DNA from: an uncultured Bacteroidota bacterium
GTDB taxonomy: Bacteria > Bacteroidota > Bacteroidia > UKL13-3
Direction of reading: 5' to 3'
Assembly (NCBI GenBank): GCA_903850915.1
Contig: CAINMV010000032.1
Location: 1 to 35,017, forward strand
DNA length: 35,017 bases
In this document: positions 4,617-22,948 of the stretch, piece after piece
Numbering within the stretch: position 1 is the stretch's first letter
Layout: every line of letters starts with the position of its first letter
Notes under the pieces: model-generated
Seen by the model: only the letters and a program-made list of their open reading frames with translations
The model's database searches: none
What the model was told of the DNA's origin: nothing
Translations under genes and position numbers: made by a program

Positions 4617-7600
4617 TTATTCATGAACAACGATCAATTCACGTCGAAATTCATAGTCATTTATTTGTATTTTAATAAAATAAAACCCATTTTCAAGTTC
4701 AGATGTGTTCAACTTAATCTTGCCCCCAGTTAATATTGAAAAATCTGCATGGAATTTCGCGCCGAGCATATTGGTGATGGAGATAGACCGAAGTTCATTA
4801 GCATTCATTCCCGATATTTCGACATTCAACAATTGGTCCACAGGTGTTGGGAATAGCGTTACGTCGGATTCATGGAGTTTTCCTTGATAAATTGGTTGAT
4901 CTGAAGCATTGCCATCTTGGATATTTGCTAAATCCCCAATAAGTAAACTATCGGAATTACCAACAGTGCCAATATCCCAGATATTTCCATTGGTGACGAC
5001 GGAACAATTGGAATAGGATGCACCTACAATGGCATTAGTAAGCAAGGTTCCTTTATAAATTGCAGTTGGTGTAATTATATTGAAGTTGTAGGTGCTAGGA
5101 TTTGCAAAAGGGTTTGGGCTCCAAAAATTATTATCAACCGACAAAAAACTAGGCGAAGTGCTTTTGGGGGATGTGACATTGAATAGCATATCGCCGTATA
5201 AAAAGTTAGTCTTAATTTTGGAATTGCCTTGAACTAAATTGTTATTCCCATTCAACAAGTCAATTGTGCCATTTTGCATTGCAAAATAATAGCTATTGTT
5301 GAGGAAGTTACAATCACCACCTGCTATTAAAAAGTCTTTGTCCTGCTTCAACCTACTTAAATTAATATTGCCTTCGGCATAGACAGCCATATTGCAATTT
5401 TTAAAGGCACTACATGCAATTGTAATAGAGGAATTGTTATTCTTTTCTTCCACCGCGGTTGTATTAAATCTAAAATCGCAACCTTTTACTACTGCACTCA
5501 AACCACTAGCGCCATTATATTGGACTCCTGTGGCATTATTTGAGAAGCTCGTAAATTCTATTTTTAATTGAGCACATTGGTTTGCAATAATGCCAATAGT
5601 ACAATGCAAAAAATTGCTATTTCCAATAGTAATTGGCAACTTAGAAAGAGATGCTCCAGCAAAACATTGGCTAAATAAATTATGATTGATAATAACCATA
5701 TCGCCAACATTATAGGTTTCATCCACTTTAAGCCCAGTACCAAAATTTTGAAATCGACAATTTGTGATTGAGATATTGGGTTGTCCAAAAAGCACCACTC
5801 CTAGATTGTTAATTTGCGCCCCTTCACCTTTGAAATTAATGAATGAAAAACTGATAGCAGCGTCCGATAGTAGCGACGAGTTTTTATCGATTTCTACTTC
5901 GCCTTGTTTAAAAATCAAAGCTACGAAGCCATTTGCTGCTTGCCTATAGCTCCCGCGAATTTGCAATGGCCCACCGGTTACTCTCGCTATTTTAGAAGCA
6001 ATGCCAGATCCTAGTAATTCAATAACATTGTTTGAATTGGCACTCGTAATGTTAGGCGAATTAACGAAATCAATAAATCCATGCCTCTGGCCTGGACTAT
6101 TTGAAAAAGTAAATTTCGAGTCGGCATCAGGCATGATTACCTCGCCTGCAATTTGGAGAATTGCTTCGCCTCCATCCAAAATAATTTTTGCCCCTTTATG
6201 ATATATAAACTGTGCCCCTTTTTCGATGACAAGCACACTTCCATTTAAAATATGTAATGTGGCACCCTCCATCAATTCTAATTTGCTTTCTTTTCGGAAA
6301 TACGTTACCGTCTTTCTTTCATTACCATCGCCCAACTCAAATAAACCACCTGCATTAATAACAACATGCGTTGGCTCACAGCTTTCCGTAGTAAACAACT
6401 CAAAGGTTGCCTTATCCATCGGCTTGTTGACGGAAGCATAAAACTGCTCTTCGAAGCCAGCATGCCTATTTTTATATCCTATAAAATCATTGGCAAATAC
6501 CTTAAGTGCGCAGTCGGTATTGACCGTTATAGAATGTAATCGATTGAAATTTAAATTACCGAAATTATAATTACTGCCTGCAGGACTCGATGCCGTTAGA
6601 TGACTCTCATAATCTCCCATCTGAAGGTCCTCAATGGCCCACTGTATAAGCCCTTGAGAGATGTAAACATGTGGCTCATTACCTTCGAAAGTATATGGGC
6701 CGTAAATAGCATCGAATGGACTAATACTATAATTAGGCTGGTGGAATTTAATAGCATTGATGCCAAAGTTGTTCACTACATTAAATAATGGGCCATCCTT
6801 TTTTTGCCAAACCTCCGGATAAATACCTAGTGCACTTACCGTAGGAATGAAACCAAAGTTAGAATGGTATGCAATCCCTGGCGATATCGATAACCATTTT
6901 GATATTTGCACCGTTTGATCCAAAGCCAAAATACCATCATTTGTTCCTCCAGGTGCAAAGTCAAAACCAAGCCCTTGAAATCGAATGTTTTCGCAACTTA
7001 TTTTACCAATGGGGAGGAGACGGTTTATCAAATAATACTCGCGTTTGGCAGAAAACACAAAGCGGCTTGTTAAGTCGGAATTGCATTGGGACGCCTTTAA
7101 TGTTGATCCATCCTCTGCGAAAATCTTTGCAGTAAAACTTGATTTCAATTTAGTAAATACATTCAAAGGCAAGTATAGCTCAGCAAGTAATTCACCACCG
7201 CTATAAACATTGTGGCTGGTTCCAAAATCTTGTAATGTTGAAATAAGAGATCCATTGGCGATTGCCACTTTACGGCATTTTGTGGGGTAACTTCCCATTT
7301 CTGTCATCTGACTATAGAAGCTGTAATAATCGGGGTGCGCTTTACTTTTATACTTCTCAGAATGATGATAAATTAGAAGTTGCTTTGAAGCTGAACGATC
7401 GAGTTTGCGCTCTAAATTATCTATACTCGCTTTGAAGTTATTGAAAGAATGTATATTGTTATCGGCAGTCCACTTTACAAAATGCTGTAAGCCAAGGGCG
7501 ATGTTTGCTCCTTCGTTGGGCGAATCGAAACTCACCCATTCCCGAACACAATGATTAACTTTATTTAGCTCCATATCTAAAAGTGCATACCGAGATACCT

Positions 7601-8933
7601 GCCCTCCCATACTTGCACCAAGAATCACAATTTCATCGTAAGATTTCCCACAATAGCAATTGCTACCAGAAAGGGAATTGCTATTCATACTCACAATAAA
7701 TTCTTCAAGTAATTTGCCATTCAATCCAATGTCGGCAGCACCATAAAGCATGTCAAAAAAAATTATATCATAGCCGGCATCTGTTGCCTTCTTAACAAAA
7801 TCAGGAGCATTCACAAAAACAAGATCATTGGTTTCTTCACCAGTAATGGGATTTATATTTTTAGCTCGAGCAATGTTTTCAAAACCCAAAGTGTTACATT
7901 TATTACCCCAACTAAAATACTCGTCCACATGGTTTTCATATCCAAAGTCGATGCCATCAACAAAAATCAGGGGCTTCTTCAGGCACCGATGTTTAGTTCC
8001 ATCTCTTTTATCTCTGCCAAGCTGAATAGAGACAAGGCTTTTCATATACACCGGAACTACAGCATGCGTAATAATTGTATTGCCATTTACATCATAGCCG
8101 GAAAACAAACTCTGATTCTCATATCTTAATACCGTTCGATCGGAGTTAAACATAAAACGGCAATCCGCATAGTCTGCGGAGGGCTTATCATCTTTTACAG
8201 TGATTGACTCCAATAAAATTTCCACAGGCTCATTAGCACCATTCACATCTAAGTAAACTTTTATACCGCGAGTGCCCGGTGAACTATAATGTACAATTAC
8301 CGTATCGAAGGCCGCTATAGATTGCGGTCCTTTACCATCATCAAAATCAAATTGAATTTTCTTTGGTCTGGGCCGATTGGTTAAGTAAAGGCGAGGGTCA
8401 TATACAAAACGAAAGGTTTGATTGGAAAAATGCGTGTAATTTAAAGCGGCCGTTTTCAATACTTTTGGTTCATATGGACTTACCCCTCCTATCACAGTAT
8501 CCTTCCAATAATATCCGGAAGTATCGATGAGCCCAGATTGAATGGCGTTAAATTTCATCTTGTGGTAATCGAAATCCATTATAATAGGAACCACCAATTG
8601 ATGTTGATTATGCTGATGGTAAATTTCTTGAATCTCCTCTTTATTTGCAATGGATAGCGATGTCAACTTCATATTGTTTAACGCAAAGGGAATCGTTAGA
8701 ATCGCATCAAATGTTATTGGTGTGCTTTGATTGCCGTCGTAATCGTCCAAATCTACAAATGGAGATAGCGTTTTGTCGGCCAACAATCCTGATGAAATCA
8801 GGTTGGTGTCGAGTTTCGAAAGCAAGGTGTCGATAAAATTTTGAGGCCCAATGGAGTCGGATTGAGCGTGCCCTGTTTTTGTTTTAGTTAGGGCAAAGCA
8901 AACCCATAAGAGCAGTAAAATTGGTCTTTTCAT
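4617..8933 (-). CDS. Secreted alpha/beta-hydrolase plus beta-helix protein with T9SS sorting domain
   Basis: The ATG at 8933 (MKRPILLLL) is preferred over the TTG two codons upstream because it directly begins a signal peptide of about 23 residues ending at HAQ. The product has 1438 residues. A lipase/PGAP1-like hydrolase region spans roughly 300-720: VDGIDFG near 325, the nucleophile elbow GASMGG with Ser441, SFDSPNEGA near 470, and DFAPGG and FIPTVSALG near 658-703, which look like the later active-site regions of such enzymes. Residues about 880-1290 are Asn/Gly-rich short strands typical of a right-handed parallel beta-helix. The last 80 residues (LFPTPVDQLLNVEIS to the end) are a type A T9SS signal, implying export to the surface or medium. 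Substrate is unknown; an ester or acylated polysaccharide is only a guess. Confidence 0.85.
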   Translation of the reverse strand: MKRPILLLLWVCFALTKTKTGHAQSDSIGPQNFIDTLLSKLDTNLISSGLLADKTLSPFVDLDDYDGNQSTPITFDAILTIPFALNNMKLTSLSIANKEEIQEIYHQHNQHQLVVPIIMDFDYHKMKFNAIQSGLIDTSGYYWKDTVIGGVSPYEPKVLKTAALNYTHFSNQTFRFVYDPRLYLTNRPRPKKIQFDFDDGKGPQSIAAFDTVIVHYSSPGTRGIKVYLDVNGANEPVEILLESITVKDDKPSADYADCRFMFNSDRTVLRYENQSLFSGYDVNGNTIITHAVVPVYMKSLVSIQLGRDKRDGTKHRCLKKPLIFVDGIDFGYENHVDEYFSWGNKCNTLGFENIARAKNINPITGEETNDLVFVNAPDFVKKATDAGYDIIFFDMLYGAADIGLNGKLLEEFIVSMNSNSLSGSNCYCGKSYDEIVILGASMGGQVSRYALLDMELNKVNHCVREWVSFDSPNEGANIALGLQHFVKWTADNNIHSFNNFKASIDNLERKLDRSASKQLLIYHHSEKYKSKAHPDYYSFYSQMTEMGSYPTKCRKVAIANGSLISTLQDFGTSHNVYSGGELLAELYLPLNVFTKLKSSFTAKIFAEDGSTLKASQCNSDLTSRFVFSAKREYYLINRLLPIGKISCENIRFQGLGFDFAPGGTNDGILALDQTVQISKWLSISPGIAYHSNFGFIPTVSALGIYPEVWQKKDGPLFNVVNNFGINAIKFHQPNYSISPFDAIYGPYTFEGNEPHVYISQGLIQWAIEDLQMGDYESHLTASSPAGSNYNFGNLNFNRLHSITVNTDCALKVFANDFIGYKNRHAGFEEQFYASVNKPMDKATFELFTTESCEPTHVVINAGGLFELGDGNERKTVTYFRKESKLELMEGATLHILNGSVLVIEKGAQFIYHKGAKIILDGGEAILQIAGEVIMPDADSKFTFSNSPGQRHGFIDFVNSPNITSANSNNVIELLGSGIASKIARVTGGPLQIRGSYRQAANGFVALIFKQGEVEIDKNSSLLSDAAISFSFINFKGEGAQINNLGVVLFGQPNISITNCRFQNFGTGLKVDETYNVGDMVIINHNLFSQCFAGASLSKLPITIGNSNFLHCTIGIIANQCAQLKIEFTSFSNNATGVQYNGASGLSAVVKGCDFRFNTTAVEEKNNNSSITIACSAFKNCNMAVYAEGNINLSRLKQDKDFLIAGGDCNFLNNSYYFAMQNGTIDLLNGNNNLVQGNSKIKTNFLYGDMLFNVTSPKSTSPSFLSVDNNFWSPNPFANPSTYNFNIITPTAIYKGTLLTNAIVGASYSNCSVVTNGNIWDIGTVGNSDSLLIGDLANIQDGNASDQPIYQGKLHESDVTLFPTPVDQLLNVEISGMNANELRSISITNMLGAKFHADFSILTGGKIKLNTSELENGFYFIKIQINDYEFRRELIVVHE

Positions 8934-8991
8934 AAGCAATTAAAAAATTTAGTATAACGTTTTTATTAAGGACGGTTATTATTTTGACTGG

Positions 8992-9968: not shown

Positions 9969-10703
9969 TTACATTTTATCGATGAACATTAGAAACTCAT
10001 CTTTTCGCCGGAGCGAGATGGGCAATTCCTCACCATTGCTCATTACAACGCTGCTATTGGACTTGTTGTATTTTCGGATATACTTTCCATTTATTAAATA
10101 AGATTGATGTATACGGAAGAAATCATGCTTCTCTAGCATCTCTGAAGTCTCTTTAAGGCCGCGACTTACAACGATTTTCTTTCCATCAATTAATTTATAA
10201 ATGGTATAACTATTGTCGCTTTGGCAAAAAACAATTTCACCAATATCAATAAAAGAGAAGCCCTCATTGGTTGGCAACGCAAGATTAGTTCGAGTGCCCT
10301 TATGCTGGTTTATTTCGGTAGATGATGGCAAAAGCACATTGGCTTGTGCCCGATTTATTGCTAAAATAAGTTCTTCTTTATCGATTGGCTTTAACAAAAA
10401 ATCGAATGCGGCATATTTTATTGCCTTAATTGCATATTCGGTATATGCAGTTGTGAAAATCGTTTTGAAATTTAATGTCTCAAATTTATTTAAAAACTCA
10501 AATCCATTTAATTCCGGCATGGCGATATCTAAAAACAAAATATCAGGTCGCAAATCATGCACTAATCCTATCGCTTCCAATGGGTTCTGACATCGAGCTA
10601 CTACGATTACGCCTGGACAATATGCCATAATCATCCGATCGAGTGCGTCAATGTTTAGTGCTTCATCATCAAGTATAATTGCTTTAAGTTTGGGTATGGT
10701 CAT
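9969..10703 (-). CDS. LytTR-family response regulator
   Basis: The 244-residue protein has an N-terminal receiver domain with acidic pocket Asp12-Asp13-Glu14, phospho-acceptor Asp59 (LFLDIAMPELNG), Thr84 and Lys105-Pro106. After a linker it carries a LytTR DNA-binding domain from about residue 140, with FIDIGEIVFCQSDNSYTIY, FFRIHQSYLIN and a C-terminal PISLRRKDEF segment typical of the family. It controls transcription when phosphorylated by a LytS-type kinase. The kinase gene is directly upstream, 52 bases away, and both read into the terminator at 9784-9810. Targets are not visible from the sequence; nearby envelope genes are possible. Confidence 0.95.
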   Translation of the reverse strand: MTIPKLKAIILDDEALNIDALDRMIMAYCPGVIVVARCQNPLEAIGLVHDLRPDILFLDIAMPELNGFEFLNKFETLNFKTIFTTAYTEYAIKAIKYAAFDFLLKPIDKEELILAINRAQANVLLPSSTEINQHKGTRTNLALPTNEGFSFIDIGEIVFCQSDNSYTIYKLIDGKKIVVSRGLKETSEMLEKHDFFRIHQSYLINGKYIRKYNKSNSSVVMSNGEELPISLRRKDEFLMFIDKM

Positions 10704-10755
10704 GTTTTATCCTTACATTTAATCCAACTGGTTTTTTCGGTAATGATACAAAAAA

Positions 10756-13752
10756 CTAATCAAAAAAAACATTGGAGATTTTTGCGATTGGAATACGAAT
10801 TTCAACAGTTGTACCTGTTGGGTCCCCGGCATCATTATGTTTATCGATATAATTGAGAAAAGTTTCAACTTTATATTTCTTTGAAAGGTAATCAAGGCGC
10901 TGTCCTGTGAGTAGCATTCCTTTAGAAATGTTCGCTTTTAGAAACGGATTCACAATACTTGAGCTGGCTTTCCTTCCTTTCCCATCGTCACTTACAGTGC
11001 AGTCTAAGGCAGCTATACCTTCTACTATAGTATAACTAATGTGCAAATTACCGCTCTCGGATTTCGGAAACAAACCATGAATCAATGCATTTTCAATTAA
11101 TGGCTGCAGCACCAAAGCAGGAATTTGGATTGAAGTATCTAACTTTGGTGAGACGCTAATTTTCCAATGAAACTTATTCTCAAATCGCAATTCTTCAAGC
11201 TCCAGATAGTCGCCAACCCATTCAATCTCTTGTTGAAGTGTGATCGTCTCCACGGTTGAGTATTCTAGTACTCTTCGAAGTAGCTTTGCGAATTTATTGA
11301 GATAATGCGCTGCAGTTTCAGATTTATTTTGGATGATGTGGCTTTGGATGGAATTGAGCGAATTGAAAATAAAGTGCGGATTAAGTTGCGATTTGATCGC
11401 CTTCAACTCACTTTCCAAAATCATAAACTCCTGTTTCTTCTGTTTTTCAAACCTTAGCTTAAGTAAAAGATACGAAAGATAGATTAACCCTATGGCTAGA
11501 AAAGCATAAATTGTTTTCGCCCAAAGCGTAAGATGCCATGGAGGAAGAATATTTATAAAGACGCGCACTGGCTCTGGGTCCCAAATACCAAGACTATTGC
11601 AGAGATAAACTTCCAATGTGTAATTCCCATGGGGCAGATTTTTATAAATAATTTCATTTGTTTTCTCCACCAGCACAAAATCAGCATCATAGCCAACAAG
11701 TTTGTATTTCAACTTGATGTCGTTAGCATCGTCTAGTATCGTATTCGCAAGAGTAAATCTCAAATTGTTGCTATCATGAGGCAGAATCAATTCTGAATTA
11801 GAAAAAATCAAACCTGATTTCTTTTTCTCATTAACCGTTAATTCACAAAAAATAGTTTTTGGTGCAAGATTATTTATTTTTGTGATAAGCTCATTCGTCA
11901 TTATTTCAGAAAAGCCTCCCTTTCCGGCTATGAACAAACTACCAACCTCATCTGCAAACATTCCGTGAAATGACGCTTCAATAGGCAATGCAAAACTACT
12001 TGTCTTAAAAGAGAATGAAGCACCATCTTGCCTTAAATATGTTATCCTATCTTGAGAATTAATCCAAAGATTTTTGCCATCGCTAGATTCAACTTGAAAG
12101 GCCTTTTGAATGCTTGGTATTGGAGATGTTACTTCTCCTGTTAATAAATTTACTTTTCTAAGGCCTTTATCTTGAAAGGCAATGAAGAGTGAATTGCCAA
12201 CAACTTTAGATGACCATGCCCTTCCATTAAGAACAGCGAAGGAATTAAAAACATCTTCTTTTGGAATAAACATTTGTCTGCTGACATCAAAAACCACTAA
12301 GCCCTCTAATGAGCTTATTAACAAGTAATTTCCATAAGGTTCTATATCCCAAAAGCAGTTAGCTTGACCTTTTGAACTTACAAACTCAAAAGTTCTTTTC
12401 AATTCAGCTTGTTTATTAAATAATAGAAGAAAAGAAGATTTATCTGTATTACAAACTACCCAAAAGCAATTCTTAATATAAGCTATGTCCCATACTCTTC
12501 CAGAAAAAGGAATGGGTATTGTTCTATTTCCAAAAATACTTATTCCGGAATTACTACCAAGCCAAAGTCGATGTTGATTATCTTCGAATATCTTATTTAG
12601 ATTAGAGGATTGTGCATCTTCAAACAATGAATTAGGATACCTCTCAATTTTCAGATTCAGTTTATCACCTAATTTACATGTAAATTTACCATCCCCATCA
12701 TTACTAAAATGTATTAAACCTGACTCAATGTCTGAATAAATACAACGCAGAGATACTTCCCGGTCATTTATCTTATTCGACAGATCAAAATGCTTAATTG
12801 AAAAAGTATTACATTGAATTAATCGAAACAAACCAAAATAATTAGAAAGAAGGTAATTATCACTTAGTTTGTTGTAAAAAATATCGAAGGTTTGATTTGA
12901 AGCGGAAATGCTTAAACCACTTAGAGAATATGTAAGTTTTTCAAACTTATGATTAAATGGATTCTTTATATACGTTGAATTATTGGTGAAGAGCCATAGC
13001 TTATTATTGCAAAGTCTTATGTGATGGGCATCTTCGCCTTTTGGAGTTAGAAATTTATCAATGATCATTCTGTTTTTAAAATCAAAACATACGTATTCCA
13101 AAATTGAAATTAATGAAATACAGGAATCATGAACAGCTAAATCTTCAAGATTAAAACCATCAAGTATTTTTGTTTTTAATAACGTTCTTGTGTTTAACAA
13201 ATAAACGGAATGGTCATTCGTATAGACTAATTGGGTATCAGAGATTGGGATTACCTTATCAGCCCTAATTCCATCAAAGCTTTTTCGAATTTCTAAATTA
13301 TTCTTTACTAAGGCACATTGAAATATTCGTTGTTGTTTTTTACTAGCCAAAAAGATTTGATTTTGACCAATAAGATTGACGCAATTTACCGGTAAAGTGG
13401 CTTGAGGTATTGCAACATTTGTCTGCTTAAGCTCTGCGATATCAAAAAGTCTTAATTCCTCATCCCCATAATTAAGAAGGATTTTCCGGCCAAGTATAAA
13501 CGCATCTTTTAGTCTAAAGTCTGGCTGAATAATTTCATCAAATGATTCTATTTGCTCTCCATTGAATCGAAAAATTCTGCTAAATGTCCTCATCCAAAGC
13601 ATACCTGAAGTATCAGAATAAAACTTCCTCACATAGTCTTCTCGAAAATCTATTTTGTGAGGGAATTCTCTAACAATAAAGTCAGATTGCCCATAAATTG
13701 AATTTATAGAAAAAAAAACTATTAGACAATAGATAAATATTACTTTTCGCAA
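10756..13752 (-). CDS. Propeller-type sensor histidine kinase (LytS/YehU class)
   Basis: The 998-residue protein starts at a TTG, since no ATG is available before the signal peptide (about 1-21, ending IYGQ). Residues 22 to about 630 form a diverged beta-propeller sensor with Reg_prop-like stretches such as GMLWMRT and HRLWLGSNSGISIF. A Y_Y_Y domain follows at about 650-735, then one membrane helix at about 744-766 and a His_kinase domain with phospho-acceptor His793 in NPHFIFNSLN. The ATP-binding domain shows LIENALIHG near 885-893 and DDGKG at 922-926. The sensor half is therefore periplasmic. Unlike hybrid two-component systems of this phylum, the receiver and output domain are in a separate gene 52 bases downstream. 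The ligand is unknown; a glycan is a common ligand for related sensors. Confidence 0.93.
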   Translation of the reverse strand: MRKVIFIYCLIVFFSINSIYGQSDFIVREFPHKIDFREDYVRKFYSDTSGMLWMRTFSRIFRFNGEQIESFDEIIQPDFRLKDAFILGRKILLNYGDEELRLFDIAELKQTNVAIPQATLPVNCVNLIGQNQIFLASKKQQRIFQCALVKNNLEIRKSFDGIRADKVIPISDTQLVYTNDHSVYLLNTRTLLKTKILDGFNLEDLAVHDSCISLISILEYVCFDFKNRMIIDKFLTPKGEDAHHIRLCNNKLWLFTNNSTYIKNPFNHKFEKLTYSLSGLSISASNQTFDIFYNKLSDNYLLSNYFGLFRLIQCNTFSIKHFDLSNKINDREVSLRCIYSDIESGLIHFSNDGDGKFTCKLGDKLNLKIERYPNSLFEDAQSSNLNKIFEDNQHRLWLGSNSGISIFGNRTIPIPFSGRVWDIAYIKNCFWVVCNTDKSSFLLLFNKQAELKRTFEFVSSKGQANCFWDIEPYGNYLLISSLEGLVVFDVSRQMFIPKEDVFNSFAVLNGRAWSSKVVGNSLFIAFQDKGLRKVNLLTGEVTSPIPSIQKAFQVESSDGKNLWINSQDRITYLRQDGASFSFKTSSFALPIEASFHGMFADEVGSLFIAGKGGFSEIMTNELITKINNLAPKTIFCELTVNEKKKSGLIFSNSELILPHDSNNLRFTLANTILDDANDIKLKYKLVGYDADFVLVEKTNEIIYKNLPHGNYTLEVYLCNSLGIWDPEPVRVFINILPPWHLTLWAKTIYAFLAIGLIYLSYLLLKLRFEKQKKQEFMILESELKAIKSQLNPHFIFNSLNSIQSHIIQNKSETAAHYLNKFAKLLRRVLEYSTVETITLQQEIEWVGDYLELEELRFENKFHWKISVSPKLDTSIQIPALVLQPLIENALIHGLFPKSESGNLHISYTIVEGIAALDCTVSDDGKGRKASSSIVNPFLKANISKGMLLTGQRLDYLSKKYKVETFLNYIDKHNDAGDPTGTTVEIRIPIAKISNVFFD

Positions 13753-14728: not shown

Positions 14729-15490
14729 CTATACATCGAGGAAGGTAGAGAAGGTGTCGCCTCGCAATCCTAATCGTAAGGTCTCTAAAGGTATAACCTC
14801 GTTGGGTGCTATATTCCCTAAGTTTACATTGGCCCCCATCTCTTTTATAAACCACACTTGCTGGCCTTTTTGAGGTGCCTCCCAAATTACATTCTCTTTA
14901 GGGATAAAATGGGCTATCTCATGGACTAAACCCATCCGAGCTTCACCGTTGCTTCTATATACGCCTACATTGCCACTTTCTCGTGCCTCCGCAATAAGTT
15001 TCCATGCACCTGCTTCACTCTCCTTTTTCATGAATTCAACCCATTCGTATGGGGCATAAATTTTTTCTGCATCTTTACTTCCCACTTCACTGAGAACCAC
15101 CGCATAATTGCAAAGCTTGCGGATATATTCGCACTTTACATCATGTGGCATCTCTAAACTACCATCGCTCATCTCTACATGGGTAATACCAAATTTCTCG
15201 ATGAGCTTTAAATAATCATCAAATCGCTTGCGCACTATAAATGCCTCTAACAAGGTGCCGCCGAAATAAACTGGGATGCCAGCGCTTTTATATAAATTGA
15301 TTTTATCTTGTAAATGTGGCGTTACATAGGAGGTGCCAAAACCTAACTTCAATAAATCGGTATGTATCGATGATACACTTAGAAAATCTTCTACCTCGCG
15401 AACGCTTAGTCCTTTATCCATCACCATCGTGATGCCCTCGTTTCTTGGCTTTAACGGCCGAAAAGGGATTTGATCCAACTCAAAATTCAT
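14729..15490 (-). CDS. comA: ComA-like phosphosulfolactate synthase
   Basis: The 253-residue protein matches the ComA family (PF02679), TIM-barrel enzymes that add sulfite to phosphoenolpyruvate to give phosphosulfolactate. Recognisable segments are LLKLGFGTSYV near 46, VYFGGTLLEAF near 74, HVEMSDGSLEMPH near 104, VLSEVGSKD near 131, WEAPQKGQQVWFI near 203 and EVIPLETLRLGLRGDTF near 231. The length is normal. In archaea this is the first step to coenzyme M. In Bacteroidota, where coenzyme M is not expected, the product may feed sulfolactate or another sulfonate; that part is inference. No ComB or ComC homologue is adjacent. It is divergently transcribed from the propeller protein at 15705. 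Confidence 0.88.
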   Translation of the reverse strand: MNFELDQIPFRPLKPRNEGITMVMDKGLSVREVEDFLSVSSIHTDLLKLGFGTSYVTPHLQDKINLYKSAGIPVYFGGTLLEAFIVRKRFDDYLKLIEKFGITHVEMSDGSLEMPHDVKCEYIRKLCNYAVVLSEVGSKDAEKIYAPYEWVEFMKKESEAGAWKLIAEARESGNVGVYRSNGEARMGLVHEIAHFIPKENVIWEAPQKGQQVWFIKEMGANVNLGNIAPNEVIPLETLRLGLRGDTFSTFLDV

Positions 15491-15704: not shown

Positions 15705-17804
15705 ATGATCAGGAGTTTATTAATAGCCTGCCAATTGCTTATCTCATTCATAATGTGCGCTCAATCGCCCATCCGAATGTGGGATAAACGTTTTGCTGGT
15801 GACACCATCGACAACTTAAACGCCATTCGCAGAGCGACAAATGGAAACCTTTTCTTGGCAGGAAAAAGCAATTCGAAGAACTCCGCCGAAAAAAGCCAAA
15901 CTAGCAAAGGCGGCTACGACTATTGGGTGGTGAAAACCGATAGCAATGGCAATAAATTATGGGATGTTACACTCGGAACTACAAGTAACGAAGAGTTATT
16001 TTCGGTTGCACCTACAGCCGATGGAGGGTGCCTTGTCGGTGGATACACCAGTGGTGGCATTTCAGGAGATAAAAGTCAGGCTAATATGGGCTCCTACGAT
16101 TATTGGGTGGTGAAGCTTAACGCAAATGGAGTAAAACAATGGGATAGTGCCTATGGCGGAAACAGCTACGAAGAGTTGCATTATATTGAACCAATCGCCG
16201 GTGGAGGTTATTTATTAATAGGCTTGTCCTACTCCGGAAAATCGGGAAACAAAAAGAGCCCAAACAAAGGTGATGCCGACATTTGGGTGGTAAAAATTGA
16301 CAGTGTGGGGCGTATGCTTTGGGATAGTAGCTATGGAGGCAAGGGCTTCGACAACTGTTGGGAAGGACATCAAACCAAAGATGGGGGCTTCCTGCTCGCA
16401 GGCTGGTCTAAGTCGCCTATCAGTGGCAACAAATCCATCGATAGTATTGGGAATAGCGATGTATGGCTTTTGAAGATTTCGTCCACCGGTGTAGTCCTCT
16501 GGGATAAAGTTTATGGCGGTGCTAATGTGGATGAGATTCTTACCTTTATTGAACTTAAAGATGGAGGATTCCTTTTGCCAGCCTACTCCAACTCCGGCAA
16601 ATCGGGCAATAAAAATGTTTTTTCCAAAGGGAACACAGATACCTGGCTAATTCGTACCGACGCCTTAGGCAATAAATTATGGGAAAGAGCCATTGGTGGC
16701 AATTCTGACGAGAAATGCTGTGCCATTGTGCAAACCTCCGAGGGCCGTTTTGTTATGGGTGGCTACTCCTATTCAGGTACCGGCGATAGAAGTAAATTCA
16801 ACTATGGTGGACTAGATTATTGGGTAATAAAAGTAGATTCTGGCGGCAAGCCTTTATGGGACGAAACATTAGGCGGCAAAAGGGATGATTATATGCAAGA
16901 TATGGTTTTAACTCCAGGCGATAATATCGTATTAGCCGGATATTCAAAATCAAGTAAGGGTCTTGATAGAACATTAGATACCCTTGCTGGAGGAAATTAT
17001 GATTATTGGATAACGAAAATCAAACAACCAAACTTCTACATTAACAAACACGACACCCAACTATGCCCTAACGACGCCGTTTTTGTGCATTATGTAACAA
17101 CGAATACATTTGCCGACACTAATAAAATTTTCCTTCAGCTTAGTGATGGTTACAGCAACTTCACTACTATTGTAAATGTCGGATTTAAAATTGGCACAAA
17201 ACTCAAAACAGATAGCATTTTGGCGCTTATTCCATCTACAGTAGGTGCTGCGCCTTATTATAAATTTCGATTTGTAAGTACCGCACCGAAGGACACAAGT
17301 CTTTGGAGTTTTGCTGTGAAAGTTTTAGCCTTGCCTAAAAAACCAATAGTAATTCATTACCTCGACACATTACTTTGCAGCAATAGCAATGGCGTTAACT
17401 ATCAATGGCTAAAAAACAACGTAGCCATTCCAGGAGCCACTCAGCGCAAATACAGGCCAACAGTGCCTGCGTATTATAGCGTAAGGGTAGATAGCCCAAT
17501 GGCATGCCCATACACCTCCGATCCATTGGCTATAAATAACATTGGAATTGATTTAAAAGCCGGTAACATAGCCATTGAGGCCATTCCTAATCCATTTAAC
17601 AGTTTTGTGACTTTAAAGATATTGCACGATATTGAAGAGAACACGCAAGTAGAAATATTAAGCATGGATGGGAAGCAAGTTTATATAGGTACAACAAGTA
17701 AAAAAGAAACTCGGATTGAAACCTCGGATTTCCATCGTGGATTATATTTTATTAAAGTCAGAACTAGCCAAGGAATTGGAATACTAAAACTGATTCATCT
17801 GTAA
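15705..17804 (+). CDS. Secreted seven-repeat beta-propeller protein with T9SS sorting domain
   Basis: The ATG at 15705 starts a signal peptide of about 20 residues ending MCAQS. Residues 24 to about 443 hold seven repeats of roughly 60 residues built on LWDxxxGG, DGGxLLxGxSxSGxSGxKS and DYWVVKxDSxG, as expected for seven propeller blades. Residues about 445-610 form a probable Ig-like region with a SNGVNYQWLKNN stretch. The last 75 residues (AIPNPFNSFVTLKIL onward, with GLYFIKV) are a type A T9SS signal. The 699-residue product is therefore predicted to be exported and attached to the surface or released. No catalytic motif is seen; a binding or adhesion role is possible. Gene neighbours give no clue. 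Confidence 0.85.
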   Translation: MIRSLLIACQLLISFIMCAQSPIRMWDKRFAGDTIDNLNAIRRATNGNLFLAGKSNSKNSAEKSQTSKGGYDYWVVKTDSNGNKLWDVTLGTTSNEELFSVAPTADGGCLVGGYTSGGISGDKSQANMGSYDYWVVKLNANGVKQWDSAYGGNSYEELHYIEPIAGGGYLLIGLSYSGKSGNKKSPNKGDADIWVVKIDSVGRMLWDSSYGGKGFDNCWEGHQTKDGGFLLAGWSKSPISGNKSIDSIGNSDVWLLKISSTGVVLWDKVYGGANVDEILTFIELKDGGFLLPAYSNSGKSGNKNVFSKGNTDTWLIRTDALGNKLWERAIGGNSDEKCCAIVQTSEGRFVMGGYSYSGTGDRSKFNYGGLDYWVIKVDSGGKPLWDETLGGKRDDYMQDMVLTPGDNIVLAGYSKSSKGLDRTLDTLAGGNYDYWITKIKQPNFYINKHDTQLCPNDAVFVHYVTTNTFADTNKIFLQLSDGYSNFTTIVNVGFKIGTKLKTDSILALIPSTVGAAPYYKFRFVSTAPKDTSLWSFAVKVLALPKKPIVIHYLDTLLCSNSNGVNYQWLKNNVAIPGATQRKYRPTVPAYYSVRVDSPMACPYTSDPLAINNIGIDLKAGNIAIEAIPNPFNSFVTLKILHDIEENTQVEILSMDGKQVYIGTTSKKETRIETSDFHRGLYFIKVRTSQGIGILKLIHL
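15774..17033 (+). repeat. Seven tandem ~180-base coding repeats (propeller blades)
   Basis: Seven consecutive units of about 58-60 codons encode the repeats of the propeller protein. Each begins near LWD or its variant and ends with a [DN]xWxxK segment. Units 2-5 are the most alike and units 1, 6 and 7 are more diverged. Confidence 0.8.
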
Positions 17805-18658: not shown

Positions 18659-19258
18659 GTGCTTAAACTACACTCTCAAAGTAAACTCCTCGAAGCCGGC
18701 ACCGATGAAGCAGGCCGAGGATGCCTTGCGGGCCCTGTATTCGCGGCTGCCGTAATTCTACCGAAGCGCTTCAAAAACAAAATTCTCAACGACAGCAAAC
18801 AAGTATCGGAAAGCAATCGCGATGCACTACGCGCGTTAATTGAAAAGGAGGCCGTAAGTTTTGCCGTAGCTCAAATTGATGGGGCTGAAATTGACAAGAT
18901 AAACATTTTAAAGGCAAGCATCAAGGCAATGCATCACGCTATAGGAATGCTAAATGTTAAACCAGAATTTATCATCGTAGATGGCAATCACTTTTACCCT
19001 TTTCCTGATATAAAACACCGTTGTTATGTTAAGGGCGATGGCCTTTTTCTTAATATTGCAGCAGCAAGTATTTTAGCCAAAACATACCGCGACGAATTTA
19101 TGATGCAAGCGCACCAAACATTTCCGCACTATCATTGGGATAAAAACAAAGGCTATGGAACCAAGTCGCATGTCGACGCTATTCGTGAATTTGGATATTC
19201 ACCATTGCATCGAAAAACATTCGTGGTAAAGTCATTACAACAGCTAAATTTATTCTAA
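18659..19258 (+). CDS. rnhB: Ribonuclease HII
   Basis: RNase HII cleaves RNA in RNA/DNA hybrids and removes misincorporated ribonucleotides from DNA. A GTG at 18659 is chosen as start because it gives 199 residues with the catalytic Asp16-Glu17 (TDEAGRG) at the normal distance. The longer frame to an ATG at 18554 would overlap the divergent methyltransferase and add a non-homologous leader. Other landmarks are NDSKQVSES, VDGNHF with Asp108, and ASILAKTYRDE with Asp145. It is complete. It lies 45 bases upstream of the acyltransferase on the same strand and may share a transcript with the four-gene acyl cluster, probably without a functional link. Confidence 0.95.
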   Translation: MLKLHSQSKLLEAGTDEAGRGCLAGPVFAAAVILPKRFKNKILNDSKQVSESNRDALRALIEKEAVSFAVAQIDGAEIDKINILKASIKAMHHAIGMLNVKPEFIIVDGNHFYPFPDIKHRCYVKGDGLFLNIAAASILAKTYRDEFMMQAHQTFPHYHWDKNKGYGTKSHVDAIREFGYSPLHRKTFVVKSLQQLNLF

Positions 19259-19303: not shown

Positions 19304-19927
19304 GTGAATTCAATTCAAAAAGTGGCTCACCAAATCCGCATCCTTATTAGAACGCTATTTTCATATCGCTTCTATCACTATCTGCTATTTTCAATATACA
19401 AGGGGTTTCAACACTACTTGTTTATTGCAAAGGCGAAACAACGCTTCCCCAACACTACCCTTCACGACGACCTTTTAATGCCAAATCCAGAGCGTGTAAG
19501 CATCGGCGAAAGGTGTATTATTAGTCCTGGATGTTATTTTAACTGTGGCTTTGCGCCTTATTGGGGCATCATAAACATGGGAAGTAATATCACAGTTGGT
19601 TATAATGCATGCCTTTATGCTGGTGGTGGGAAAATCATAATCGGTGATCATGTTGACTTGGGAATAAATTGTATCATCACAACACAAACACGCAGCATGA
19701 CGCAACACCCAGTTCAAAATCGGACAAATTTCGAACATCATTTCGGCGAAGTAATTGTTGGAGAAGGAACGCTTGTAGCCTCTAATGTTACCTTACTTGC
19801 AGGTACAACTTTAGGGAAATATTGTAATGTTGTGGCAGGCGCGGTGGTGCAAGGTAATTACCCTGACAATACCACGCTGGTGGGCAATCCAGCTCGACCT
19901 GTACCACGAATTGAGATTAAATCGTAA
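19304..19927 (+). CDS. Hexapeptide-repeat (LbetaH) acyltransferase
   Basis: The 207-residue protein begins at a GTG and has a basic, partly hydrophobic N-terminus (RTLFSYRFYHYLLFSIYKGF) suggesting membrane association. From about residue 60 it shows left-handed beta-helix hexapeptides: VSIGERCIISPG, ITVGYNACLYAGG, KIIIGDHVDLGINC, VIVGEGTLVASNVTLL, then the closing VVAGAVVQGNYPDNTTLVGNPARPV typical of WbbJ/NodL/Maa acyltransferases. Members transfer an acyl group from CoA or carrier protein to a sugar or similar hydroxyl or amine. It is the first gene of a tight plus-strand set with an acyl carrier protein, a reductase and an acyl-activating ligase, so a carrier-bound acyl donor is plausible. 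Confidence 0.88.
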   Translation: MNSIQKVAHQIRILIRTLFSYRFYHYLLFSIYKGFQHYLFIAKAKQRFPNTTLHDDLLMPNPERVSIGERCIISPGCYFNCGFAPYWGIINMGSNITVGYNACLYAGGGKIIIGDHVDLGINCIITTQTRSMTQHPVQNRTNFEHHFGEVIVGEGTLVASNVTLLAGTTLGKYCNVVAGAVVQGNYPDNTTLVGNPARPVPRIEIKS

Positions 19928-19936
19928 AATGAAAAA

Positions 19937-20230
19937 ATGAAAAAACCAACAGAAAAAGTGGTAACAGATGCGTTAAGTATACTCTACCATGAACTTCGCA
20001 TTGAAATGCCTATCGATAGCGATACAATAATTTACGGCACAAGCAGCTTGCTTAATTCACTCTCCTTGGTTCGCCTTATCGTGGAAATTGAAGATGCCAT
20101 CTTATTATCAACAGGACAACAAATTTTAATTGCCAACGACCGTGCATTGAGTTTAAAACACTCACCATTTTACTCCGTTGCTACCCTATCAGCTTATATC
20201 AACACCTTGCTCAATGACACAAATTCTTAA
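19937..20230 (+). CDS. Acyl carrier protein
   Basis: The 97-residue protein fits a phosphopantetheine carrier. YGTSSLLNSLSLVRLIVEIE aligns with the DSL-containing helix start of ACPs, with Ser41 as the predicted attachment site; the usual Asp before it is Asn. The C-terminal TLSAYINTLL helix also fits. It is longer and more diverged than housekeeping AcpP, which indicates a specialised carrier. It starts 9 bases after the acyltransferase stop, and its own last 17 bases overlap the start of the reductase gene, pointing to translational coupling. A tiny ATGAAAAAATGA frame immediately precedes the chosen ATG. Confidence 0.85.
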   Translation: MKKPTEKVVTDALSILYHELRIEMPIDSDTIIYGTSSLLNSLSLVRLIVEIEDAILLSTGQQILIANDRALSLKHSPFYSVATLSAYINTLLNDTNS

Positions 20231-20921
20231 GCCCACAATACTGATTACCGGGGCAAGTAAAGGCTTAGGAGCTGAAATTGCCGAGCACTATCTAAACCAA
20301 GGACACAAGGTGGTTTCTTTGAGCCGAAGTGCTTCCGTAGTGCATGAAAATCACCTTCAATATCAAGCAGACATTTCAATTGAAGCAGATATATTGTATG
20401 TGATTAAAGATTTGAAAAGCAAGAAAATTCCGATTGATGTGCTAATCAATAACGCTGGAATTGCAAGTATGAATTTTATGGTGAGCACCCCGCTTACCAC
20501 TGCTGCTTCAATATTCAACACGAATGTTCTCGGCTCATTTTTAGTGACACGCGAAATTTCCAAAATGATGATTTTACAAAAAGCAGGTCGCATCATCAAC
20601 ATCTCTTCTGTTTCCTTGCCTCTGCATCTAGAATGGCAAAGTATCTATGCCTCATCAAAGGCCGCCTTAGAAGAATTTACACGCATCATTGCAAAGGAAT
20701 TAGCCCCTTTTAATGTTACAGCGAATATCCTTGGACCCAATCCCATGGCTACCGACTTAATTCATGGTATTCCTGAGTCTAACTTAAATAAAGTGCTCGA
20801 GCGGCAATCCATCAAAAAAATGGGGATGCCTTCGGATGTAATTCATTGTTTGGATTTTTTTATGAGCGAAAAAAGCACCGCCATCACGGGTCAAACGATT
20901 TATTTAAATGGTGTATTTTAA
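20214..20921 (+). CDS. Short-chain dehydrogenase/reductase (FabG-like)
   Basis: The start is placed at the ATG at 20214 (MTQILKPTILITGAS), not an upstream ATG inside the carrier gene. The 235-residue product has the classical NAD(P)-binding TGASKGLG at 12-19, NNAG at 79-82, Ser132 (INISSVS), and catalytic Tyr145 and Lys149 (YASSK). The last residues (GQTIYLNGVF) fit the FabG-type end. It probably reduces a 3-oxoacyl group on the adjacent carrier protein, an inference from neighbours. Its first 17 bases overlap the carrier gene and its stop is only 2 bases before the ligase ATG. Confidence 0.92.
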   Translation: MTQILKPTILITGASKGLGAEIAEHYLNQGHKVVSLSRSASVVHENHLQYQADISIEADILYVIKDLKSKKIPIDVLINNAGIASMNFMVSTPLTTAASIFNTNVLGSFLVTREISKMMILQKAGRIINISSVSLPLHLEWQSIYASSKAALEEFTRIIAKELAPFNVTANILGPNPMATDLIHGIPESNLNKVLERQSIKKMGMPSDVIHCLDFFMSEKSTAITGQTIYLNGVF

Positions 20922-20923
20922 TT

Positions 20924-22231
20924 ATGGAAACCTTACTAAAGCATTGGCGAAACTTTGGCGAATCCATTGCTATCATTGAGGATGAGGAAAAATTCAGCTT
21001 CAATACATTCATTGTCGATATTGAAAAGACGAGTCACGAAATAACATCTCAAATAAACACAAATAATACCGCCTTCGTTTGGAACTATTCGCCGTGCTAT
21101 TCGAATGTAGTTTTACTATTCGCTATTGCTCGATGTGGTGGTATAATTGTACCCGAAAATAGTGCACATCGTATATTTAGTTCAAAGGTAGAAAACCGCA
21201 TCCATCTTGGTGAAAGTAGCTTAAGCACTTTCCAAATTGAAGATTTTGAATTAACATTGGAGCTAAAAAAAAGGCAATCTTCCGGCATAATTATTTCTAC
21301 CTCTGGCACAAGCCAACAACCTAAAGATGTACTTCTCGATTTTAGTCTGCTCTGCCTAAAGTACTTAAAATTGCAATCGAAGTTTGTCTCTGTATTAACC
21401 TTTAGTTTAGAACATATCTCAGGCATCGAAACGTTAATTAGCATACTCTCTCCAGGAGGCACTATTGTTCTGCCAACGGGCAGAAATCCGCATCAAATAG
21501 CGGACGCCATTAAACAAAATAAAGCTTCGCTACTTTCGTGTACGCCCTCCTTTTTAATACAGCTTCATCTTAAAAACTTACTAAATCAGGAGTACTTTGA
21601 AACCATAAAAATCATTAACTGCGGTGGTGAGCCTTTGCGTGAAATATGGCAAAAGAAATTTCAAGAAAAAATCCCAAACGTGAATATTCGACAGGCCTTT
21701 GGAACCACAGAATCCACCAATTTAAGAACAAGCACACACCCTACAAACAGCCGATTGTTTAAGCCCGGCTTGCACAATGAAGACTTTATCATTAAACAAA
21801 ATCGATTGCTGCTAAGGAGCCTAGGTTACCTCATTGGAGATTGGAATAAAGGCTTTAAAAACAATGACGCTTGGATTGAAACGGGTGATATGGTAGTTGA
21901 AGCTGAAGACGGATTTTTGGAAGTGATAAATAGATGGGATACCTTAATTTTGGTGGGTGGCAATAAAGTTAATGCCCAGGAAGTGGAAGAGATTATACTT
22001 CAACTTCCCATAGTGCAATTTGCTCGTGTATATGGCGAGAGCAATTTGATCCTTGGGCAAATTGTAGTGGCCGATGTTGTATGTGATGCCAACGCAGATC
22101 TGCTGGCACTAAAGTCAATAATCCGACAACATTGCTACACGCATTTAGATGACTTTAAAGTACCGGTGAAAATAAAAAAACTTAATGAACTCCCCTTGAC
22201 AACGCGAATGAAATACGATGCGGCACAATAA
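20924..22231 (+). CDS. ANL-family acyl-activating enzyme (AMP-binding ligase)
   Basis: The ATG at 20924 (METLLKHWRN), 2 bases after the reductase stop, gives 435 residues; the frame is open further upstream but overlaps the reductase. Adenylation motifs are present in order: STSGTSQQPK at 125-134 (A3), QAFGTTES at 257-264 (A5), TGD at 320-322 (A7), NRWDTLILVGGNKVN at 336-350 (A8) and a C-terminal TTRMK with Lys430 as the likely catalytic A10 lysine. It is shorter than usual acyl-CoA synthetases (about 500-550 residues), mainly in the N-terminal half. It should form an acyl-adenylate and load it on CoA or on the neighbouring carrier. The acid substrate cannot be read from the sequence. Confidence 0.88.
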   Translation: METLLKHWRNFGESIAIIEDEEKFSFNTFIVDIEKTSHEITSQINTNNTAFVWNYSPCYSNVVLLFAIARCGGIIVPENSAHRIFSSKVENRIHLGESSLSTFQIEDFELTLELKKRQSSGIIISTSGTSQQPKDVLLDFSLLCLKYLKLQSKFVSVLTFSLEHISGIETLISILSPGGTIVLPTGRNPHQIADAIKQNKASLLSCTPSFLIQLHLKNLLNQEYFETIKIINCGGEPLREIWQKKFQEKIPNVNIRQAFGTTESTNLRTSTHPTNSRLFKPGLHNEDFIIKQNRLLLRSLGYLIGDWNKGFKNNDAWIETGDMVVEAEDGFLEVINRWDTLILVGGNKVNAQEVEEIILQLPIVQFARVYGESNLILGQIVVADVVCDANADLLALKSIIRQHCYTHLDDFKVPVKIKKLNELPLTTRMKYDAAQ

Positions 22232-22255: not shown

Positions 22256-22948
22256 CTAAACTTGAGGCTTGTTGTGATCGGAATAGTCGATTAAACCATC
22301 CTTTAAGCGTATAATGCGCTTAGCAAAACGAGCAATATCCTCTTCATGTGTAACAAGAATTATTGTATTCCCTTTCGAATGTAATTCATCAAAAAGATGC
22401 ATTATCTCTACCGACGTTTTAGAGTCTAAGTTCCCAGTAGGTTCGTCGGCCAACAATAGTGAAGGGTTATTAACCAAAGCCCTAGCCACAGCCACTCTCT
22501 GACGCTGCCCTCCAGAAAGTTCATTGGGTTTATGCATCATCCTATCTGTTAGCCCAACGCCAGCTAAGGTAAGTTTTGCCTTTGCCTCACGATCAGCTTT
22601 GTTAACGCCGGCATAGATAAGGGGCAACGCAACATTTTCTAACGCAGATTGCCTTGGCATTAAATTGAAGGTTTGAAAAACAAAGCCGATTTCATTATTT
22701 CGAATTTCTGCAAGTGCATTATCACTCATGCCGCTTACATCATGTCCATTTAAAATATAGGTGCCTGATGTTGGAGAATCTAAACATCCTATCATATTCA
22801 TCAAGGTGCTTTTGCCAGAACCAGAAGGTCCCATGAGGGCAACATATTCGCCCTTCTCAATAGTTAAGTCGATACCTCTCAAAACTTGAAGCACTTCTTT
22901 TCCCATCACATAATTTTTGGTGATGGCTTTTAGTGAAATTAACGACAT
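22256..22948 (-). CDS. ABC transporter ATP-binding protein (LolD/MacB type)
   Basis: The 230-residue ATPase has Walker [10 protein letters not shown] at 40-48, Q-loop Gln92 (FVFQTFNL), signature LSGGQRQR at 144-151 and Walker B LLLADEP at 164-170, followed by TGNLDS, typical of the LolD/MacB/FtsE group. Such ATPases drive lipoprotein release from the inner membrane or mechanotransmission efflux together with FtsX-like permeases. No permease gene is adjacent in the window, so the partner lies elsewhere. It lies 61 bases downstream of korB on the same strand and converges with the ligase gene, 24 bases away. Confidence 0.93.

Follow-up and report, generated by a model that had tools for sequence, protein, structure and literature searches.

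What do four closely packed genes of an uncultured Bacteroidota bacterium, encoding a left-handed beta-helix (LbetaH) acyltransferase (AT), a diverged acyl carrier protein (ACP), a FabG-like short-chain dehydrogenase/reductase (SDR) and a short ANL ligase (LIG), accomplish together? The genes lie on contig CAINMV010000032.1 of assembly GCA_903850915.1, whose 35,017 nucleotides constitute the window analysed here; G000 denotes the genome of the window, while other G numbers denote the relatives compared with it. The cluster is real and goes beyond a chance neighbourhood. Judged from sequence comparison, the four genes are one functional set, though they are mostly split outside two congeners. 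As to what the set does, we give roughly even chances to a hydroxyacyl donor line with its own carrier, from which AT would transfer the acyl group to a glycan precursor.

The distribution of the genes in relatives carries the first part of this answer. ACP, SDR and LIG were searched for in 97 genomes and AT in 196, using thresholds of 1e-18, 1e-42, 1e-20 and 1e-25, respectively, that were set after the E-values had been seen. Across the 97 relatives, ACP is present in every genome that has SDR (11/11) or AT (8/8), and in 12 of the 14 that have LIG. At the level of genera (53 in total), 6/6 SDR genera and 5/5 AT genera fall within the 7 ACP genera, with p-values of 3e-7 and 7e-6, respectively, which depend on the post hoc thresholds and ignore kinship. 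The initial annotation had treated the genes as one set, and this co-occurrence across genera, unlinked copies included, bears it out. The accompanying expectation that the four be conserved together in relatives holds only in part: the AT-ACP-SDR-LIG row is found in 2 of the 5 genus genomes compared (G000 and G001), whereas the genes co-occur across genera and AT remains adjacent to ACP where SDR and LIG have moved. The rarity of the row among congeners could mean that four unrelated genes stand together by chance. We regard this as very improbable, because G001 has the same row, the unlinked copies co-occur in relatives across genera, and ACP-SDR-LIG recurs in distant lineages (see below).

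AT orthologues are found in G001, G007, G008, G016, G020, G029, G073 and G520, a count in which 7 of 16 AT hits (E-values of 1.4e-16 to 7.7e-13) are not taken as orthologues. With G000 included, these are 9 genomes; ACP comes immediately after AT in 8 of them, and in the ninth, G073, the two lie on separate contigs. In G007, G008, G016, G020 and G029, the pair is adjacent while SDR and LIG are elsewhere (no SDR was found in G029); in G520, which belongs to another family, AT-ACP-SDR are together and the ligase is on another contig. The divergent neighbour of the pair in G007 is a gene resembling a phosphopantetheinyl transferase (PPTase; 24.1 bits, cut-off 25). The persistent AT-ACP linkage suggests that AT takes its acyl group from this ACP. 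ACP and SDR are neighbours in G000, G001, G035, G073, G090, G184, G200, G287, G303 and G520, and at a second G003 locus. A 403-residue protein is encoded next to LIG in G016, and G007 has a 30% relative of it in that position. We considered it as a constant partner and set it aside: it is found in 24 of the 97 genomes and is absent from G000-G004.

Within the genus, the interval between the RNase HII and LolD-like genes that flank the cluster holds acyl-cassette genes in all five genomes (G000-G004). In G002, G003 and G004, this slot contains SDR-LIG and a gene for a 188-residue protein (LbetaH by Pfam in G002, the sole one scanned), with no ACP there. The slot (window, L032, L039, L040 and L041) accommodates two cassette types in one genus, and their ligases do not group in the tree. 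Only in G001 does LIG have a luciferase-like (alkanesulfonate monooxygenase-like) gene after it (L032:4616-5581), whose product could oxidize the acyl chain. ACP of G002 and G004 is found in a PPTase-PlsY-M48-DegT-ACP locus, and that of G003 in a DegT-ACP pair at a contig end; in all three, the DegT-type (LegC-like) aminotransferase and ACP genes overlap by 14 bases, away from the RNase HII slot (L160:782-2207, L161:8671-9967 and L162:8610-10035). G001 keeps the PPTase-PlsY-M48-DegT-ACP locus minus ACP, and G000 keeps it minus both DegT and ACP. In the lineage of the window, the carrier gene appears to have been relocated to the cassette.

The carrier itself is recognized through its family. 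Queried by itself, the window ACP hit neither a PDB chain nor any carrier model of Pfam or NCBIfam, and a plasmid search with it gave no match. A family profile built from 11 sequences, run against PDB, matched 49 chains at E<=1, of which 44 are named as carrier proteins or ACP (best E-value 7.8e-4). When 20 carriers were compared with 14 housekeeping ACPs using hhalign, the probability was 52%, with Ser41 aligned on the AcpP serine, as against at most 0.8% for 20 column-shuffled controls. The set of 20 leaves out the ACP-like hit of G146, the weak class-level hits of G060, G065, G066, G076, G077, G080 and G086, and the ACPs of pTML1 and Bradyrhizobium. Ser41 is kept in all 20 carriers, window included, and in 12/12 sequences of alignment A5, which takes in the pTML1 and Bradyrhizobium ACPs; an SPF motif is found in 19 of the 20 and is absent from the latter two. 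By profile similarity together with the invariant serine, the family is assigned to the carriers. The private, diverged ACP that had been proposed at the outset is upheld, and its attachment serine is conserved. The Asn of the Asn-Ser-Leu site named for it is not diagnostic, the residue before Ser41 being N, D, S or H across the 20 carriers. An AlphaFold model of ACP as a single sequence has helices at residues 6-19, 42-59 and 81-96, at a predicted local distance difference test score (pLDDT) of 49, which is too poor to use; the AT model, likewise made without an alignment, reached 40. Elsewhere G000 encodes an ACP and a FabG of the housekeeping kind, and it has one PF01648 PPTase match above the cut-off, so the cassette comes on top of fatty acid synthesis.

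The SDR is likewise distinct from the housekeeping enzyme, scoring 152.5 bits against TIGR01830 (FabG), below the cut-off of 297.75, compared with 333 bits for the other FabG of the genome. The catalytic residues N104, S132, Y145 and K149 are present in 9/9 aligned sequences. In the SDR tree, which like the ligase tree has long branches and open forks, the cassette SDRs make up a clade of 13 rows (100/99) that excludes housekeeping FabG as well as the SDRs of pTML1 and Bradyrhizobium; those of G043 and G050 also fall outside it. The acid could in principle be loaded and transferred unreduced, with SDR working on a sugar or a later intermediate, as the unlinking of SDR from AT-ACP and LIG in G007, G008, G016 and G020 would allow. 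We consider this improbable in view of the presence of ACP in all SDR genomes and the many loci at which the ACP and SDR genes are neighbours.

LIG retains the catalytic residues S127, D322, R337 and K430 in 12 of 12 sequences. In the ligase tree, an 18-row group (95/93) holds the window LIG and the pTML1 ligase, separate from the other ANL enzymes included. The window LIG belongs to a clade of 6 rows (99/98), and the pTML1 ligase sits with module ligases in one of 9 rows (100/99); the branching order within the group is unresolved, and the G050 ligase joins it weakly. Searched against genome contigs, LIG matched one relative at 24% identity, inside a 2170-residue frame. Against plasmids, Bradyrhizobium loci gave better E-values than a Rhizobium locus, with less query coverage.

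The pTML1 genes are arranged as LIG-SDR-ACP-polyketide synthase (PKS) and are those we take to be TmlQ/TmlS/TacpD of the thiomarinol cassette; the pTML1 SDR matches MupS (4yxf) at 1.4e-94. The primary study, ACS Chem Biol 2020, 15, 494-503, reportedly speaks of a 'priming cassette'. The window cassette resembles the mupirocin and pTML1 cassettes in the contiguity of ANL ligase, SDR and ACP, and in the ligase group shared with pTML1. However, the window SDR (29% identical to that of pTML1) is in its own clade and not in the MupS/TmlS branch, and the window ACP is not of the MacpD/TacpD type (20% identity to the pTML1 ACP, with Ser41 common and SPF not). In addition, the gene order is reversed in the window, and the acyl group would reach an acyltransferase instead of a ketosynthase. 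Because SDR and ACP are of other lineages, the window cassette is likened to the MupQ/MupS/MacpD type and is not counted as a member. MupQ, MupS and MacpD are stated to make the 3-hydroxypropionate starter of mupirocin from malonyl-CoA, and thiomarinol to be primed with 4-hydroxybutanoyl (PMC10098928). Two statements of the initial annotation give way here. It had recognized no named pathway, and the mupirocin genes together with the pTML1 ligase clade provide a precedent; it had also called for a keto acid or for elongation, and neither a ketosynthase nor a keto acid is strictly required, since the mupirocin starter is described as formed from malonyl-CoA.

The same ligase clade, along with ketosynthase III (KSIII) genes at two loci of relatives (the second G003 locus and G184), would suit a mupirocin-like role in which the cassette supplies the starter of a polyketide or fatty chain and AT releases or caps what is made. 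The window genes that were scanned with Pfam include no ketosynthase, nor does the G001 row, and we hold this reading to be quite doubtful.

Outside the window's genus slot, ACP-SDR-LIG is contiguous in G035, G200, G287 and G303. At the second G003 locus, a metallo-beta-lactamase-fold gene and KSIII interrupt it, and in G184 a larger number of genes do so; G090 has ACP next to SDR, with a ligase close by on the opposite strand. A Rhizobium locus, reached by both the LIG and the SDR plasmid searches, has the order ACP-GNAT-SDR-LIG-LbetaH, and its ACP-like gene is matched by the G003 carrier (31%, E-value 3e-3). On this plasmid (L061:8016-13669), the next gene after the module carries the annotation halogenase CmlS, and the module may therefore be part of a natural-product cluster there. 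When G000 and G001 are set apart, six of eight module loci have an acyltransferase alongside, with three superfamilies represented in all: GNAT in G035, at the second G003 locus and in G184 (the last called by BLAST), AAC(3)-like in G287, PglD-like in G303, and both GNAT, just below its cut-off, and LbetaH in Rhizobium. Among the eight, the G200 locus ends at a contig edge and the surroundings of G090 were left out; the Bradyrhizobium and pTML1 loci, which have PKS genes, are outside the eight. Sugar genes are found at the module in G035 (DegT, nucleotidyltransferase and dehydratase) and G184 (DegT). In a survey of 395 genomes of the phylum, 6 genomes other than that of the window had ACP at E<=0.001, and 4 of these (G184, G200, G287 and G303) have SDR and LIG at the same locus; the other two (G146 and G270) had no ligase match at 1e-10, and AT was found at E<=1e-20 in none of the surveyed genomes besides the window.

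In the donor line that we propose, a PPTase would convert ACP at Ser41, and LIG would adenylate a short carboxylic acid and load it onto ACP. SDR with NAD(P)H would then give the hydroxyl, either by keto reduction on ACP or with the hydroxy acid made first, as in mupirocin. AT, partnered with this ACP, would transfer the hydroxyacyl group to a glycan precursor, at either an amine or a hydroxyl. A hydroxyacyl product is suggested by the SDR and by the MupQ and wfp precedents, the latter described in PMC6519341. A glycan acceptor is suggested by the module loci in relatives and by the annotations of an Aeromonas island (PMC7874193). The acceptor of AT is probably a glycan precursor.

The known systems each match this scheme partially. 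By description, wfpC-wfpG of F. psychrophilum encode an O-polysaccharide-specific ACP, a 3-ketoacyl-ACP reductase and a PglD-like acyltransferase, and the wfp genes are predicted to place 3,5-dihydroxyhexanoyl on UDP-Qui2NAc4N; they differ from the window cassette in having two ketosynthases, and no ligase is named in the portion of the account at hand (PMC6519341). The Aeromonas group II flagellin glycosylation island has an ACP, a 3-oxoacyl-ACP reductase and an AMP-dependent synthetase by annotation (orf1-orf3) between pseudaminic acid genes, but luxE and luxC are also there, and the available text assigns no product to the island (PMC7874193). FdhC and QdhC are described as putting 3-hydroxybutanoyl on a sugar-nucleotide amine, but the available text mentions neither a ligase nor an SDR or private ACP alongside them (PMC4869667). 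We found no direct precedent in the literature for an O-antigen locus with an ACP, a ligase and 3-hydroxybutyryl.

Several observations weigh against a glycan-directed donor line. In addition to the post hoc thresholds and the slot that lacks ACP in three congeners, G043 and G050 have ligases without ACP, G029 has no SDR at the threshold, and the ligase match of G073 is weak (3.6e-9). MupS as the identity of the SDR is ruled out by the tree. No sugar-nucleotide aminotransferase or other linked sugar gene is present among the window genes scanned with Pfam. DegT was considered as the missing partner in the window genome and rejected, the best G000 match being at 32% with no close orthologue. 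At E<=1e-40, DegT is found in none of seven genomes with cassette genes (G007, G008, G016, G020, G029, G073 and G090), and DegT without the cassette is common (51 of 97 genomes). No catalytic His is fully conserved in AT: the candidate active-site His145 is present in 7 of 9 sequences, with a gap in the other two, and His135 is not conserved.

The gene order in one genus also counts against a glycan acceptor. AT-ACP lies directly before a gene of the GGGPS/PcrB family, with PlsY upstream, at L151:5238-6978, L152:7927-9606 and L154:7713-9498. In this genus, g5 (G008, G020 and G029), PlsY-AT-ACP-GGGPS are on one strand, and the ACP and GGGPS genes overlap in G008 and G020. This arrangement keeps a lipid acceptor in play for the same donor line; glycerolipids, or isoprenoid glyceryl phosphates from the GGGPS/PcrB family, would be examples. 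PlsY is also nearby in G002, G004 and G520, and AT weakly matches the heptaprenylglyceryl phosphate O-acetyltransferase model (35.6 bits, cut-off 300). However, other LbetaH models score AT equally or better, the GGGPS link is confined to one genus, the PPTase-PlsY-M48 locus of G000 is without any cassette gene, and the module loci of G035 and G184 are sugar loci. We therefore judge a lipid acceptor unlikely.

The coordinates of the locus are collected in Table 1. When re-derived, they agree throughout with the four intact plus-strand genes initially described, including the spacing: 9 bases between AT and ACP, a 17-base overlap of ACP and SDR that places the SDR ATG within the ACP gene, and 2 bases between SDR and LIG. 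The family assignments are also right, with matches of AT to the PF00132 hexapeptide (4.5e-8), SDR to adh_short (2.2e-40), and LIG to AMP-binding (1.5e-17) and AMP-binding_C (1.7e-10), ACP being placed by its family profile.

Table 1. Features of the acyl-cassette locus and its flanks in the window.
Feature	Position	Strand	Details
AT (LbetaH acyltransferase)	19304..19927	+	207 aa, GTG start; N-terminal stretch before hexapeptide repeats
Diverged acyl carrier protein (ACP)	19937..20230	+	97 aa; attachment Ser41; SPF motif residues 76-78
FabG-like SDR	20214..20921	+	235 aa; ATG at 20214
Short ANL ligase (LIG)	20924..22231	+	435 aa; AMP-binding domains
RNase HII flank	18668..19258	+	PF01351 7.5e-39; 45 bases upstream, same strand; also in G001-G004
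LolD-like ABC ATPase flank	22256..22948	-	ABC_tran 2.9e-35; convergent, 24 bases past LIG; also in G001-G004

The four genes have an unremarkable GC content (0.38-0.42), and promoter and terminator scans gave scores no better than the shuffled level. Elsewhere in the window, 14732-15490 (minus strand) encodes a ComA-like phosphosulfolactate synthase (PF02679, 2.3e-89), and 9969-13752 (minus) a LytTR response regulator adjoining a histidine kinase with a Y_Y_Y domain. Two large proteins with C-terminal Por_Secre_tail sorting domains (type IX secretion cargo) are encoded at 4617-8939 (minus) and 15705-17804 (plus).

Beyond this locus, ACP-SDR-LIG with a MupQ-type ligase may be a portable hydroxyacyl donor module, a proposal to which we give slightly less than even chances. 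One ligase lineage would serve ketosynthases in antibiotic and PKS clusters as well as exchangeable acyltransferases (LbetaH, GNAT and AAC(3)-like) in Bacteroidota and Rhizobium, and antibiotic starters and surface hydroxyacyl decorations would come from one evolutionary kit. If so, an SPF-type ACP together with a MupQ-type ligase and an SDR would be a signature for hydroxyacylated glycans or lipids in genomes that are chemically unanalysed, and an antibiotic starter-unit ligase would be tied to surface chemistry.

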